Below are positions 30,275 to 40,672 of a stretch of DNA of 41,637 nucleotides, piece after piece. Each line of letters begins with the position of its first letter. The first letter of the stretch is position 1. The position numbers and the translations under genes were made by a program. The DNA comes from Alteromonadaceae bacterium (GTDB lineage Bacteria; Pseudomonadota; Gammaproteobacteria; Enterobacterales; Alteromonadaceae). The notes beneath the pieces are model-generated. The model saw only the letters and a program-made list of their open reading frames with translations, was not told the DNA's origin and searched no databases. The stretch is from contig JALUXV010000466.1 in the NCBI GenBank assembly GCA_027013165.1, forward strand, positions 1 to 41,637, given 5' to 3'.

Positions 30275-30715
30275 ATGAAAACCCTTCACTTTGTTGTAGG
30301 CTCAGTCACAGGCACATCCCGAGGATTTGCCTGTGATTTACAAGACAAGCTTGCAAACACCTACAAGATACATTTTCACGAATATTCAACGCTAGATGAT
30401 GTATTGATAGCGCCTACGCAAACCGTGGTGTTTTTTGTATCCAATACAGGAGCGGGGGAGTTTTCTCCATACCTCCGGCGTATCTATTTGCAGCTAACTA
30501 GGCAGCAATATTTGTTGCCTGATTGCGAGTATTTGATTTTAAATTTTGGCGACAGTCGCTATAAAGAGTTTGGTACGGCTGGCTTCTTACTTGATGATGC
30601 CCTTCGCAATGCCGGCGCAAAGCCATTATGCGACATACTCACTTTAGATGCATTCAACAACAATCATACAGACATTCCTATCTACGACTGGGTAATGAAT
30701 AATTTACCTGAGTAA
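30275..30715 (+). CDS. Flavodoxin-like protein (MioC-like)
   Basis: The ATG at 30275 gives MKTLHFVVGSVTGTSRGFA. GSVTGTSRGFA is the FMN phosphate-binding loop. VVFFVSNTGAGEFSPY and YLILNFGDSRYKEFGTAG, near residues 60 and 95, are the two isoalloxazine-side loops of short-chain flavodoxins. This is a 146-residue single flavodoxin domain resembling MioC/sulfite-reductase flavodoxin domains. The open frame extends upstream into the protease gene, but those residues are not conserved in kind. It starts 17 bases after the protease stop and may be co-transcribed. The redox partner is unknown. Confidence 0.8.
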   Translation: MKTLHFVVGSVTGTSRGFACDLQDKLANTYKIHFHEYSTLDDVLIAPTQTVVFFVSNTGAGEFSPYLRRIYLQLTRQQYLLPDCEYLILNFGDSRYKEFGTAGFLLDDALRNAGAKPLCDILTLDAFNNNHTDIPIYDWVMNNLPE

Positions 30716-30785
30716 CCTTTTCCCGTGCTTAGAAGTTAGCATTGTGATTTGCTAGACTGCCTGTAAAAGCATTGAGGGAATTTTT

Positions 30786-31277
30786 ATGACGCATTATCTT
30801 AAAAAGGCTGTTTTTATCGGACTAGTCAGTGTTGGGCTAATCGGATTGTCGGCGTGTAGCGACAGCGAAGTCGGGGATGTTTCCTTGGGAGTATTTACCA
30901 CCAAAGACATTAAAATTGACGCCTTACAAGACCCCATAGTGACAGGTGTTACTTGTCATATTTCGAGTATAGAAGCAGACTTGGATTTTTCAGACCCGTC
31001 CGACAGCTCCATTGCGTGTCGCCAAACAGGGCCTATCACCGCTGAAATGCTTGCAGCCATTGATATGTCAGATTCTGGCGAAGTGATTTTCAAGAAATCG
31101 AAGAGCGTGTTTTTCAAAAATATGAAATTGCGCAGAATTTATGACGCTGGTTCACACACGTTGATTTACTTGTCTTACAGTACCAAGGAAACTTCAGGAA
31201 GCTTTAAACACAGCATTTCAACTGTGCCGTTGTGGAATGCAGGTGTGGATCTTGTTGGCATCCAACCTACCACTTAG
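30786..31277 (+). CDS. creA: CreA-family lipoprotein
   Basis: The N-terminus carries a lipoprotein signal with lipobox LSAC (cysteine near residue 24), so the mature protein should be lipid-anchored. The remainder matches E. coli CreA: IKIDALQDPIVTGVTCHIS, SIACRQTGPI, GEVIFKKSKSVFFKNMKLRRIYDA, LIYLSYSTK and HSISTVPLW. The function of CreA is unknown. It is followed at 62 bases by the PBP-like stub and SEDS genes, all on the same strand. Confidence 0.88.
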   Translation: MTHYLKKAVFIGLVSVGLIGLSACSDSEVGDVSLGVFTTKDIKIDALQDPIVTGVTCHISSIEADLDFSDPSDSSIACRQTGPITAEMLAAIDMSDSGEVIFKKSKSVFFKNMKLRRIYDAGSHTLIYLSYSTKETSGSFKHSISTVPLWNAGVDLVGIQPTT

Positions 31278-31339
31278 TATGTAAAATCACATCATCGGTG
31301 CGTCGATTCAATATCCGGAAACATAAACAAGGAATTGTT

Positions 31340-31609
31340 ATGCAAATTAAAGACCCCGCAGGTGAAGATAAACTCAACAATCGCATAGTGGTTTTAACTA
31401 TCGCCATAATTGTTTTGTTTGTCGTAGTCATTGGACGATTCATTTACCTAGTTGTTTGTGAAGGTGAGTCTTTGAGAAAAGAAGCTGAGGCTCGGGTAAA
31501 AGTAAGTGCCGTATTTTCGGAGACTAGTTTCACCGACCTAGCTGTCACTCTTGCTAAGCCCCAATCCCAAAAGAGCATACCAAAACAAGGAGGGCATGAT
31601 TATGTTTAG
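31340..31609 (+). CDS. Class B PBP (PBP2/FtsI)-like N-terminal membrane stub
   Basis: The 89-residue protein has AAGGA six bases before its ATG. It has a short cytoplasmic N-terminus, one membrane helix (about residues 16-39), and then GRFIYLVVCEGESLRKEAEA, followed by RVKVSAVFSETS. This aligns by eye with the start of FtsI/PBP2 (GRxxxLQVIxxxxLxxEGxxR, then RVxxxxxxRG). There it stops: the pedestal and transpeptidase domains are absent and no remnant follows. Its last eight bases overlap the start of a SEDS gene, the usual partner of class B PBPs. It could be a deleted PBP or a purposeful regulatory subunit; the intact RBS and overlap favour the latter. Resemblance is moderate. Confidence 0.65.
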   Translation: MQIKDPAGEDKLNNRIVVLTIAIIVLFVVVIGRFIYLVVCEGESLRKEAEARVKVSAVFSETSFTDLAVTLAKPQSQKSIPKQGGHDYV

Positions 31610-32726
31610 CCTCCGAGATTATTTGTACATTGACAAACTATTACTAGCACTTTGGCTTACATTAGTTGGGATTGGGCTTTTCACCGTGTGTTCAGCAGTG
31701 AGTGAGGGGTATCCAGAATTTATTAAAGACTCAGTAACTAATGGGCATGTCTTCCAAACTATATTCGCGGTGGTTTTGTTCAGTATTTTCGTTTTAAACC
31801 CTTTAAAGTTTGTTCGATTGATTAGCCAGTATGCTTTGTTTTTTGCACTGTTTATCGCTGTTTTACTTACGTTTTTTGGTACTCACATCAATGGTGAAAT
31901 CCCGTTCTTTAAGCTAACGCTGTTTGGTGATACTCAGGTGTCTATTTATGGTATTGGCATAGTAGTCATTGCCTGTGTGTTCTATTTTTCATATTTATTT
32001 GAAGCAGAGTTTTCAGCGTTTAGAACGTCAACATTAGCTAAGTTTAGCCATGTATTTTTGTTCGCTCTGCTTGTAGTACTTTGTTTTCTTCTGACAGCGT
32101 CCTCGGTGGTTACCTTATTTATAATTGCTTTAATGTTTGCTTACTTGAAGGGCGCGAGTTACACCTCTATGTCTTTGCGCTTTGCATCTATAGCAGTTTT
32201 TACTTTGCTAATTGTACTTGCTAATGAATATCGTCTTAGGCGGCTGCTTACGTTTTTAGACCCGTGGGATGACCCTTTTGGGGCTGGATATCAATTATTA
32301 ATCTCTTTGATGGCAATTGGCCGAGGAGGATGGACAGGTCAAGGTGTTGGCGAAAGTGCATTTAAACAGGGTTTGCTTCCCGAAGGCTATGGTAATTTTA
32401 TCATCGCTATTATTGCGGAAGAAGTCGGCGTACTTGGTGTTATCGTACTGCTTAGCTTAATACTCATGTTAGTGTTGAAAGTCTTTAAGATAGGGAAACA
32501 ACTATATAGTGCTGGCAACTATTTTGGAGCGAGCTTTAGTTGGCTAACTGGTATGTTGATTACCGTCAATACCTTTTGGCATTGCGCCAGCGTATCAGGG
32601 CTTATCCCAACCATAGGCAAAGCACTACCGTGGATAAGCTACGGCAGCAACAATGTAGTGCTTTACACTATGTTACTGGCCGTAGTCATTCGGTGTGATA
32701 TTGAACGAAAGTTGTCGGAACGTTGA
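31602..32726 (+). CDS. SEDS-family protein (RodA/FtsW-like) lacking catalytic motifs
   Basis: SEDS proteins polymerise lipid II with a class B PBP. This 374-residue, roughly ten-helix protein has the fold signatures: DPWDDPFGAGYQLLISLMAIGRGG near residue 222, LPEGYGNFIIAIIAEEVGVLG at 259-279, and GLIPTIGKALPWISYGSNN near 340. The core motifs are changed: PExHTDF reads PEGYGNF, so the catalytic Asp (D262 in E. coli RodA) is N265; QPSE reads QVSI; and QPDLGTA is not recognisable in TASSVVT. It is therefore probably inactive as a glycosyltransferase. AAGGAGG lies eight bases before ATG 31602; the ATG at 31596 is too close. Family sure; inactivity inferred. Confidence 0.85.
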   Translation: MFSLRDYLYIDKLLLALWLTLVGIGLFTVCSAVSEGYPEFIKDSVTNGHVFQTIFAVVLFSIFVLNPLKFVRLISQYALFFALFIAVLLTFFGTHINGEIPFFKLTLFGDTQVSIYGIGIVVIACVFYFSYLFEAEFSAFRTSTLAKFSHVFLFALLVVLCFLLTASSVVTLFIIALMFAYLKGASYTSMSLRFASIAVFTLLIVLANEYRLRRLLTFLDPWDDPFGAGYQLLISLMAIGRGGWTGQGVGESAFKQGLLPEGYGNFIIAIIAEEVGVLGVIVLLSLILMLVLKVFKIGKQLYSAGNYFGASFSWLTGMLITVNTFWHCASVSGLIPTIGKALPWISYGSNNVVLYTMLLAVVIRCDIERKLSER

Positions 32727-32733
32727 ATGCACG

Positions 32734-33855
32734 TTAGGTTAGCGATTCATACTCAGTAAACACCTTATACAATTGCGTGCCACTCAGTACCGATGCCGAT
32801 GGAAAGTGTAAGATGGGAATAAGATCACACGGGGCGTTTAAGATTCGACTGCCGTTTTCATTGTCTAAATCATCAATGTTGAGGATTTGCGCTAATGGCT
32901 CCCCTTGTTTGACGTATTGCCCCGGTTTTGCGATGTACTCCACCATGCCACCCCAATCGGTAAAAAGGGTTTTGTAGTCCTTCAAATACACACCGACACG
33001 GTCGATGGCTTTGGGCGTGATCCCGTTTTGATGTAGAGAACCTTTGGCATTTAAATAGGCCAGAATGCTCTCGGCATCCTCGTCGCCTTCTTTAAAATTG
33101 ATGACTTCTTGGCTGCCCATTTCGAGGGTGAAGGCTTCTACCTCAAAGTTCACCTTTCTACCTGTACTGTTTTCAATCGCATCGGTTAGCGCCCACCATG
33201 GGCAGAAGGTCGCTTCGTCTAGCGCACCAGCAAATACGTTAGGGATAAAAATACAATGGGGAATGTTAAATAACGTAGCGCTTGCCTTTGCGTATTCAGG
33301 TACATAGATATGGCGTGTAGATACTGGGCCATTATGTAAATCCAAAACGTAGTCGGCATTAACGGCTATTTGTTGAAGTTTAAGATTAAGCTGCTGTGCT
33401 AGGCCAAGTCCCCAAGGAGACGCAAGTTTTTCATCAATGGCTGTAGATAAGCATTGGCGAAAACGGCGTTTAATGCCTTCAATGGATTCTTCTGGGGTAA
33501 CGGTTTTGGCAAAGTCAGCCACTAAATTAGGATCATAGTGATATCCTCGATTCCAATTGGTACCGTTAACGGGGTCGAAGCGTCCAAGAGTGTATTCACC
33601 TGCTTTTATATTCGTACCAACTGGGTTGCAGTTGGGTACTAGAATAACTTCACCACAAATATCCAACTGCTTTAAGCGCTGGATGAGATGATAAATGACA
33701 ACGTTACCTTGTACTTCCGCACCGTGTATTGAGCTTTGAATATATACTGTTGGCCCAGGGCGACTGCCTCTCAATCGGTATATTGGTACGTTCATGTTAC
33801 GCCCCGAGGCGTTTTGCGCGACGACGATATGTTGCTTAGTCACGTCTATGGTCAT
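32734..33855 (-). CDS. Succinylglutamate desuccinylase/aspartoacylase-family (M14-like) hydrolase
   Basis: The zinc-binding motif HGAEVQGN (HxxE) is near residue 44 and the third ligand in DLHNGP near residue 172. PTVYIQSSIHGAE, ILVPNCNPVG and GRFDPVNGTNWNRGY are typical of the AstE/AspA branch. A catalytic glutamate lies in FEVEAFTLEMG. The C-terminal portion (YIAKPGQYVKQGEPLAQI) is a biotinyl/lipoyl-like beta-hairpin common to deacylases of this group. The substrate is unknown; no arginine-catabolic gene is nearby, so AstE itself is unlikely. It is convergent with the SEDS gene with seven bases between the stops, and lies downstream of moeB. Confidence 0.85.
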   Translation of the reverse strand: MTIDVTKQHIVVAQNASGRNMNVPIYRLRGSRPGPTVYIQSSIHGAEVQGNVVIYHLIQRLKQLDICGEVILVPNCNPVGTNIKAGEYTLGRFDPVNGTNWNRGYHYDPNLVADFAKTVTPEESIEGIKRRFRQCLSTAIDEKLASPWGLGLAQQLNLKLQQIAVNADYVLDLHNGPVSTRHIYVPEYAKASATLFNIPHCIFIPNVFAGALDEATFCPWWALTDAIENSTGRKVNFEVEAFTLEMGSQEVINFKEGDEDAESILAYLNAKGSLHQNGITPKAIDRVGVYLKDYKTLFTDWGGMVEYIAKPGQYVKQGEPLAQILNIDDLDNENGSRILNAPCDLIPILHFPSASVLSGTQLYKVFTEYESLT

Positions 33856-39172: not shown

Positions 39173-40672
39173 CTAAAAATATTTATTTTCAACGATCTTA
39201 GAGATCCTATTGATTGATCTCGCCAGTCTGTCAGAGTGCTTTCATGTCACGTAAAAAGCAACCACCCAAGCCGCCTGAAGTCAGCAATCTTGAAGATGCT
39301 AAGTTAGTAATTGAAGCACTCTGGGACAGGCTTAACGACCTCGAAGATCGACTGAATCAGAACAGTCGTAATTCATCTCGCCCGCCATCTTCTAATGGTC
39401 CAGGGGCGGGTTCTTCTGCACCGACTAAAAAGCCAACAGGACGTAAGCGCGGTGCGCAATCCGGTCATAAGGGCTGTAAGCGGGTAATGGCTGATAGCGT
39501 TGATGAGACCCGTACCTACTACCCGGAAGATACGTGCGCTTGTGGCGGTGTAATTGATGTCAGTCATTCACCCTACCGTCGTCATCAGGTGTTTGATATT
39601 CCCAGCCAAGCTTTTACCGTTGTTGAGCATCAACTTTATCAGGGACAGTGTTGCCAGTGCAGTAAAACGGTCAAAGCCAATTTACCTGACAATGTGAATC
39701 AAGGGCAGATGGGTAATAACCTGCTGGCCTATGTGGCGATGCAGTCAGGCCAGTTTCATCAGAGTATCAGTAAAATCCAGCAACAGCTTGAACAAAACTT
39801 TGGCTTGTCGTTTAGTCGTGGGGCTATCTCTGAAGCACAAGGCCGCGTCAGTGCAGTACTGACGCCAGCGTATCAGGATATCCGGGAGATTATGCAAAAT
39901 GAGGCGGTCGTACACTGTGATGAAACTCGTCATCAGCGCGGCAACGAAAACCGCTGGATGTGGCAGGTGTGCACAGCTGAATTGTCTTGCTTTATGACAC
40001 ACTTCTCACGTGGAGCATGGGCAGCGAAGAAACTGCTGGGCGATAATCCAGAAAACATCGTTGTTACCGACCAGTATGCCGGTTATCACTACATTGATGC
40101 AGACCACCGACAATTGTGCTGGGCGCATATCTTAAGGAATATGAATGCGCTGGCAGAAAGCTGGGGCACGAATAAAACCTATGGAACAACGTTAGTCAGG
40201 CTCATTCGCATACTGTTCCGGCTGCAACACCGGTATGAGCGTAACGCACTAAGTGAAAAGCGATACCGGGACCGAATGGAAAAACTACGTATCGCCTGGC
40301 GAGAACAACTGGAATTGGCATCAAGACGTTGTGTCACACCACGCTATCAGAACCGGTGCAAGCTGCTGCTTAAATACGATGACATGTGCTGGGTGTTTCT
40401 CAAACATAATGGCGTACCGCTGACAAATAATGAAGCAGAGCGTTCACTGCGAAGCTATGTGTTGTGGCGAAAAGGCAGCTATGGTGTCTGGTCTCACAGA
40501 GGGGAATTGTTCAGACAACGCATCCTCACTATTGTAGAAACCTGCCGGAAGCAAAAGCTGAATCCTCTGAATTGGATTCGGGCAATCCTGGCTGCAACGC
40601 TGAACAAAACTAGCTATCCACTACTCAACGACTTCAAAGCTGCCTGTCAATAGGGCCCTGGTGAACGGTTAC
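39144..40672 (+). mobile_element. IS66-family insertion sequence (single tnpC type)
   Basis: About 1.53 kb with perfect terminal inverted repeats. The symmetry covers 39141-39172 and 40644-40675 (32 bp), and begins ACTGTAACCGTTCACCAGGG. By IS66 convention the ends are GTAAC...GTTAC at 39144 and 40672. It has one transposase gene and no tnpA or tnpB, as in the ISBst12 subgroup. The 8-bp flanks (TTAGTACT and AGTGTTAT) do not match, so no target duplication is seen. The right end lies three bases from an attC core site. This suggests insertion into an attC followed by loss of the left side. Confidence 0.88.
39244..40653 (+). CDS. tnpC: IS66-family transposase (TnpC)
   Basis: DDE transposase of 469 residues from the ATG at 39244; the frame is open 30 bases further upstream. 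The N-terminus has the leucine-zipper-like helix and the NQNSRNSSRPPSSNGP motif typical of IS66. A zinc-finger region follows (CACGG near residue 100 and CCQCSK near 140). VVHCDETRHQRG (first D), IVVTDQYAGYHYI (second D) and NNEAERSLRSYVLWRKGSYG (E) complete the catalytic triad. No truncation or frameshift is visible, so it may be active. Confidence 0.93.
   Translation: MSRKKQPPKPPEVSNLEDAKLVIEALWDRLNDLEDRLNQNSRNSSRPPSSNGPGAGSSAPTKKPTGRKRGAQSGHKGCKRVMADSVDETRTYYPEDTCACGGVIDVSHSPYRRHQVFDIPSQAFTVVEHQLYQGQCCQCSKTVKANLPDNVNQGQMGNNLLAYVAMQSGQFHQSISKIQQQLEQNFGLSFSRGAISEAQGRVSAVLTPAYQDIREIMQNEAVVHCDETRHQRGNENRWMWQVCTAELSCFMTHFSRGAWAAKKLLGDNPENIVVTDQYAGYHYIDADHRQLCWAHILRNMNALAESWGTNKTYGTTLVRLIRILFRLQHRYERNALSEKRYRDRMEKLRIAWREQLELASRRCVTPRYQNRCKLLLKYDDMCWVFLKHNGVPLTNNEAERSLRSYVLWRKGSYGVWSHRGELFRQRILTIVETCRKQKLNPLNWIRAILAATLNKTSYPLLNDFKAACQ

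Follow-up and report, generated by a model that had tools for sequence, protein, structure and literature searches.

The 41,637-nt stretch of DNA that we analysed (the window) carries two overlapping genes whose products resemble the two partners of the FtsW-FtsI pair, each in a reduced form: a stub that has only the FtsI-like N-terminus, and an FtsW-like SEDS protein in which Asn265 stands in place of the catalytic Asp. We tentatively read the pair as a non-catalytic mimic of FtsWI that would act as a dominant-negative regulator or decoy, and we hold this reading at somewhat less than an even chance, since a single genome cannot separate a mimic from a relic of a formerly active pair.

The pair sits on contig C466 of a 4.79-Mb assembly comprising 586 contigs. 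The stub gene (31340..31609, + strand; product P0001) encodes an 89-residue bitopic protein with one hydrophobic segment, and it shares 8 bases (31602-31609) with the SEDS gene (31602..32726, + strand), which encodes the 374-residue protein P0002. Each start is preceded by a Shine-Dalgarno-like site, AAGGA at 31329..31333 (+) with a spacer of 6 to ATG 31340 for the stub gene, and AAGGAGGG at 31587..31594 (+) with a spacer of 7 to ATG 31602 for the SEDS gene. ATG 31602 is the best start for the latter, as the alternative ATG 31596 leaves a spacer of only 1. The original prediction, made from the sequence before any database search, had placed both reading frames here with an eight-base overlap and a ribosome binding site, and both the coordinates and the Shine-Dalgarno-like sites bear this out. 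Upstream of the stub gene lies creA (PF05981; 30786..31277, +), and scanning 30700-32900 for consensus sites revealed neither a promoter-like nor a terminator-like site in the interval between the two genes, so read-through or co-transcription from creA is possible. Downstream, a succinylglutamate desuccinylase/aspartoacylase-like gene (PF24827; 32734..33855, - strand) is convergent with the pair. The neighbours identified in the window were creA, flavodoxin, desuccinylase, and Mo-cofactor genes, with no glycan or lipid-carrier gene among them. An IS66-family transposase gene (PF03050, 137.5 bits; 39214-40653, +) with a GC content of 49.1%, compared to 44.9% for the window, lies some 6.5 kb away from the pair, near the end of the contig. 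Searches of Rfam at gathering thresholds returned nothing for the locus, and together with repeat searches led us to reject an RNA or repeat element as the identity of the unit.

Supporting that P0002 is a SEDS protein, the PF01098 profile matched it over its whole length (158.3 bits against a cut-off of 26.4, covering profile positions 3-354 of 356). The original prediction had called it RodA/FtsW-like; the SEDS assignment stood and could be refined to FtsW-like, as TIGR02614 (FtsW) scored 178.5 bits and TIGR02210 (RodA) 142.8, each under its own model's cut-off. P0002 thus falls short of being called an FtsW orthologue, for which TIGR02614 needs 337.5 bits. The best PDB sequence match was likewise to an FtsW (25hr/8p1u, E-value 5.9e-35). 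An AlphaFold2 model built from 28 sequences had modest confidence (pTM 0.76, mean pLDDT 70.6), with pLDDT below 50 inside ECL4 at residues 218-237 and 257-264. A Foldseek search with this model gave FtsW 8p1u as the best match (E-value 7.2e-12, TM-score 0.78), and all seven matches at an E-value of 0.001 or less were FtsW or RodA entries; the next match after the SEDS entries, the O-antigen ligase WaaL, had an E-value of only 0.012. From profiles and the predicted fold, then, P0002 is a SEDS-fold protein that is FtsW-like rather than RodA-like. In a tree of 32 rows P0002 also grouped with FtsW, with support that was weak (68/55) and a terminal branch 10 changes per column long. We considered whether P0002 was a recent copy of the genome's own ftsW and rejected this, as the two proteins share 32% identity and the DNA matches were short, weak, and best to FtsW loci of other genomes.

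To see what P0002 has lost, we compared it to 80 FtsW sequences (its own FtsW, those of 29 further genomes among the 59 of the genus, and 50 loci from a scan of genome contigs, some of them cut by contig ends) and to the RodA of 16 of the 59 genus genomes. The catalytic Asp of ECL4 corresponds to E. coli FtsW D297 and RodA D262, and RodA D262N is a loss-of-function form in E. coli. In P0002 the PExHTDF motif reads PEGYGNF, so that both the His and the Asp of HTD are gone and Asn265 stands at the Asp position, as had been predicted; the Asp was universal in the sequences compared (80 of 80 FtsW and 16 of 16 RodA), including the genome's own FtsW, which keeps PEAHTDF (contig C226). FtsW of two congeners and one Pseudoalteromonas (L027, L033, L038) have HSDF or HNDF for HTDF, with the Asp kept. 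Also confirmed was the loss of QPDLGTA, as three columns of QPDLG are a gap and its Gly is Ser167. The reading of QPSE as QVSI stood only if a one-residue insertion was allowed; in an ungapped alignment of QPxE the Gln is Thr111 and the Glu is Ser114, with the position of the Gln ambiguous by one residue (TQVSI). The losses extend beyond those originally listed: the Arg and Trp of NGxxRW are replaced (P101 and F102; the motif reads NGEIPF), VNxG is lost (W326, H327, A329), and the Arg near TM2, the Lys after QPxE, and the second Gly of SYGG have become G48, G117, and S349, respectively, of which G48 is probably equivalent to RodA Arg48. P0002 thereby lacks the sequence hallmarks of an active SEDS protein in all three loops, namely the Asp of ECL4, NGxxRW...QPxE of ECL2, and QPDLG of ECL3, and on this basis its catalysis should be gone.

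Of the 67 columns where one and the same residue occurs in 90% or more of the 80 FtsW and of the 16 RodA, P0002 keeps 41. Tables 1 and 2 of PMC8765783 give 16 positions of E. coli FtsW with a dominant-negative, non-complementing substitution, and of those tabulated positions P0002 keeps 6, its own FtsW 14, and the RodA majority 15. The published essential positions were not lost significantly more often than the other conserved columns (4 of 11 kept versus 37 of 56; Fisher p=0.09).

A SEDS protein that had been repurposed, binding or moving a polyprenyl-pyrophosphate lipid or carrying out some other glycosyl transfer with a different catalytic residue, and using the stub as its activator helix, seems improbable to us. 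In its favour are the Foldseek match to WaaL, weak as it was, and the retention of the ECL4 residues Tyr210, Arg211, and Arg214, the last of which aligns with E. coli FtsW R246 and would, by our own match made by counting from the alignment, correspond to RodA Arg210, the arginine described for cavity A (PMC10449877). However, ECL3, which frames cavity A in the account of RodA in PMC10449877, is without its QPD in P0002, so the donor side would not be intact, and the loop near cavity B is changed as well (P101 and F102). Moreover, no substitute acid or base was identified, and the absence of glycan and lipid-carrier genes among the identified neighbours gives this reading no help from the locus.

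Loss of conserved residues in P0002 appeared to be regional rather than even. Of the columns with conservation of 90% or more among FtsW, P0002 keeps 39 of 48 in ECL4 and TM8 (residues 208-303) and 29 of 75 elsewhere, a split with a Fisher p of 3e-6 that is exploratory, as the ECL4 and TM8 segment was picked after the per-segment identities were known. RodA served as a control over the same columns, keeping 28-30 of 48 and 38-42 of 75 (p of 0.26 or more), with all 16 sequences showing no split. Among FtsW outliers, whose rows also contributed to defining the conserved columns, one (V082) leaned the same way less strongly (38 of 48 versus 43 of 75, p=0.019) and the four others showed no split (p of 0.24 or more). 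P0002 was more FtsW-like than the RodA majority in ECL4 and TM8 and less so in ECL2, ECL3/TM6, and TM9, the last keeping just 1 of 8 FtsW-conserved columns.

In the stub, an FtsI-like membrane helix (about residues 15-40) is followed by a first periplasmic helix, the Pivot helix (about 41-53), and then by a degenerate tail, and a profile search of the protein found neither a PBP_dimer/pedestal (PF03717) nor a transpeptidase (PF00905) domain. We built N-terminal HMMs from FtsI (11 of 15 sequences) and PBP2 (14 of 15), the rest being without the motif used for cutting, and compared the scores of the stub with those of 1000 versions of it, shuffled separately inside each of three regions. The FtsI HMM gave 23.0 bits, higher than any of the shuffles (best 13.6), and the PBP2 HMM gave 14.8 bits, again with no shuffle as high (best 13.3). 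Among the 2013 ORFs of the fetched loci, all that scored above the stub came from FtsI or PBP2 loci, apart from the stub itself; with the FtsI HMM the first ORF below it was from a PBP2 locus (17.0), the next scored 9.5, and E. coli FtsL scored -0.8. The only other match to the stub in 196 family genomes was weak (41% over 39 residues, E-value 0.002; L005) and proved to be the N-terminus of an FtsI (119.4 bits with the FtsI HMM versus 16.3 with that of PBP2), and a PDB search with the stub alone gave chance matches only. By these scores the stub is FtsI-like rather than PBP2-like, and above chance. It is roughly what would remain of an FtsI if only the membrane helix and Pivot helix were kept, which upholds the earlier description of it as the membrane helix and first segment of FtsI/PBP2 with no transpeptidase.

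The host genome has another FtsW (C226), a RodA with a PBP2 (C584), and an FtsI (C60). A profile search across it found PBP_dimer twice and transpeptidase five times, none of them on the contig of the pair. Two origins for the stub were rejected from this: a truncation of the resident FtsI or PBP2, as both occur elsewhere in the genome with both of their domains, and interruption of a longer PBP gene by a stop or frameshift, as C466 had no PBP domain match. A one-strain deletion of a PBP had been named at the outset as an outcome that would speak against a functional stub; what we found is not exactly that, because FtsI and PBP2 occur elsewhere with their domains and the stub is therefore not a deletion of a resident PBP.

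Much of what the two proteins retain lies where SEDS proteins and class B PBPs are reported to touch. In the model given in PMC10390529, the first periplasmic helix of FtsI meets ECL4 of FtsW through the pairs L53-M269 and R60-Q266. By alignment the stub keeps L53 and R60 as L45 and R52, and P0002 keeps M269 as M237 and has Ile234 for Q266, which makes L53-M269 the only one of these published Pivot pairs with both residues retained. Positions G57 and S61 of FtsI are described as needed for activation in E. coli, their mutation blocking it (PMC8078798); in the stub these have become Ala49 and Val53, and the places of L62 and V64 lie in a gap. Judging by these residues, the stub could bind better than it could activate. 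Activating and inactivating mutations of FtsWI or RodA-PBP2 are reported to cluster at ECL4 and the pedestal (PMC8078798), and the PBP2 membrane helix to pack on TM8 and TM9 of RodA (PMC10449877). According to the same account, fusing nothing more of PBP2 than its membrane helix is enough to stimulate RodA, so by analogy a protein the size of the stub can be a working partner. One further position we gave no weight: Gly257 of P0002 occupies the place of the E289G superfission variant of FtsW, but Gly is also found in 1 of the 80 FtsW and is listed there for Thermus RodA (PMC8078798).

The original prediction had proposed searching related genomes for conserved co-occurrence of the pair, and this was not found. 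At an E-value of 1e-20 or less the host genome had three SEDS matches and each of the other 58 genus genomes had two, FtsW and RodA. No genome but its own had an orthologue of P0002 among 59 of the genus, nor among 395 of the family, 394 of the order, 369 of the class, and 398 of the phylum, the last four searched at thresholds of 1e-52 to 1e-55 (the samples overlap, and each includes the host genome). Orthologues that keep the HTD Asp had been suggested as evidence against the idea; in the event no Asp-keeping orthologue of P0002 was found, which is not exactly the case envisaged. The genome-contig scan, which was limited to exact back-translated peptides, yielded 50 loci with 29-42% identity in the best segment, all of them with the Asp. 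Viral contigs searched with P0002, P0001, and an alignment (A2) gave no result, nor did a search of phage DNA. In phage and plasmid records (37 and 118), matches were below 60% identity and none covered 80% of the query; within the 20 listed of each, those with a gene name were FtsW, RodA, or SEDS-family genes, and the others were unannotated under the match. PADLOC had no match for either protein, and PHROGs had none for P0002 and just two for P0001 (E-values of 0.046 and 0.2), both to PHROGs of unknown function.

A segment of about 1.5 kb around the pair (31247..32746) is without a DNA match in the nearest relative (G229) and has a GC content of 40.6%, compared to 44.9% for the window. Similarity to this relative at the DNA level breaks off at 31246, inside the 3' end of creA, and picks up again at 32747; the relative's creA is 95% identical, and both flanks of the segment align with this congener on the same contig (84-93% DNA identity). 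Where the window has the pair, the relative carries a 1106-codon gene of the Sortilin/Vps10 family (L151, 9494-12814, +) on the strand opposite to that of the pair; a gene of this kind was not seen within 1.5 kb of the desuccinylase gene in any of the 28 further genus relatives listed. No pair of repeats joins the two segment ends. The CreA C-termini vary widely among the 29 relatives listed, so the left edge of the segment, set by the end of similarity, is blurred. As the pair is absent from the rest of the genus, gain of the segment by the host lineage is favoured over loss in the relative, the direction being the preferred rather than the proven one.

We also weighed that the contig or segment might be foreign to this genome, an artefact of assembly or contamination, and think this very unlikely. 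The number of contigs, a contamination of 6.53% in the assembly, and the failure to find an orthologue of the segment's genes elsewhere would fit such an origin. However, with both flanks matching the congener on the same contig contamination is unlikely, the adjoining moeB-like and desuccinylase genes are adjacent in all 30 genus loci listed (29 relatives and the host), and apart from the pair the genome has a single FtsW, a single RodA, and PBP_dimer in two genes.

More serious is the possibility that the pair is a relic, a third SEDS-bPBP pair that was acquired horizontally, lost the pedestal, head, and transpeptidase of its PBP and then the active site of its SEDS protein, and is now decaying without function; this we consider plausible, at roughly one chance in three. 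It would account for the presence of the pair in one genome only, for a segment of lower GC that holds another gene in the nearest relative, for the degenerate tail of the stub, and for the very long branch of P0002 in the tree. Against it, when we let the genome's own ftsW drift neutrally to 33% identity, none of 200 runs was free of stops (mean of 11.2 stops), so the P0002 frame has probably been kept for most of its history. Both genes also keep a start, a Shine-Dalgarno-like site, and their overlap, and the loss of conserved residues is regional. In the other direction, a first stop in P0002 is expected only at a median of 0.016 substitutions per site (95%: 0.069), so constraint could have been lost recently.

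Under the reading that we favour, the non-catalytic mimic, P0002 would make no glycan, being without the Asp proposed as catalytic base and without most of the conserved residues of ECL2 and ECL3, and would retain in its FtsW-type ECL4 and TM8 the surface that receives FtsI. The stub and P0002 may then bind each other through TM8 and ECL4, and one or both may also bind the resident FtsI or FtsW, such that the pair either forms a dead FtsWI-like complex or swaps partners with the resident one. By taking up places in the divisome it would lower or gate septal glycan synthesis. The original prediction had proposed a regulator or decoy of either RodA-PBP2 or FtsW-FtsI. A regulator or decoy is reasonable, as ECL4, TM8, and the Pivot helix are kept and these are described as the SEDS-bPBP contact in the published accounts cited above; the part that did not hold was the conserved co-occurrence, and the pair is FtsW/FtsI-like and not RodA/PBP2-like. 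A more specific version, in which a horizontally acquired two-gene 'anti-FtsWI' occupies the divisome synthase slot and either gates septal synthesis or serves as a selfish or stress-induced brake on division, is speculative, and we consider it rather unlikely.

The pair could be a natural counterpart of those E. coli FtsW mutants that are dominant-negative and bind FtsI. FtsW D297A is reported to be dominant-negative, and nine dominant-negative FtsW variants to have co-purified FtsI and bound lipid II (PMC8765783). P0002 is changed at the same cavity positions as these mutants (D297A, W138A, Q147E/K, and others; PMC8765783); however, they are laboratory point mutants, and P0002 comes from a natural gene with many positions changed, accompanied by an FtsI-like stub. 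With so many cavity positions changed at once, lipid II binding may be lost as well. The superfission variant whose position Gly257 of P0002 occupies differs in that E289G is described as activating a catalytic FtsW (PMC8078798), and catalysis by P0002 should be gone. Compared to FtsW-FtsI itself, the pair shares the SEDS fold, the FtsW-style ECL4 and TM8, and the FtsI-like membrane and Pivot helices, but it is without the catalytic Asp, the ECL2 and ECL3 motifs, and the partner's pedestal sheet, head, and transpeptidase, and, as far as the window extends, none of the genome's other division genes stands next to it. It resembles RodA-PBP2 in its fold and in the PBP-like gene that comes immediately before the SEDS gene, as on contig C584 of the host, but P0002 and the stub score better with FtsW and FtsI, respectively, than with RodA and PBP2. 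In the titles and the beginnings of abstracts listed, a search that included few subscription papers and no preprints, we found neither a natural non-catalytic SEDS protein nor a SEDS protein paired with a PBP stub.

If the reading as a mimic is correct, the pair would provide a SEDS protein that is naturally non-catalytic and, ready-made, a dominant-negative form of FtsWI. It could serve as a tool to tell what FtsW-FtsI does as a scaffold and in signalling apart from its catalysis, with the stub offering a minimal FtsI, consisting of the membrane helix and Pivot helix, for structural work. Were it instead a relic, the pair would still suggest which surface of FtsW goes last.
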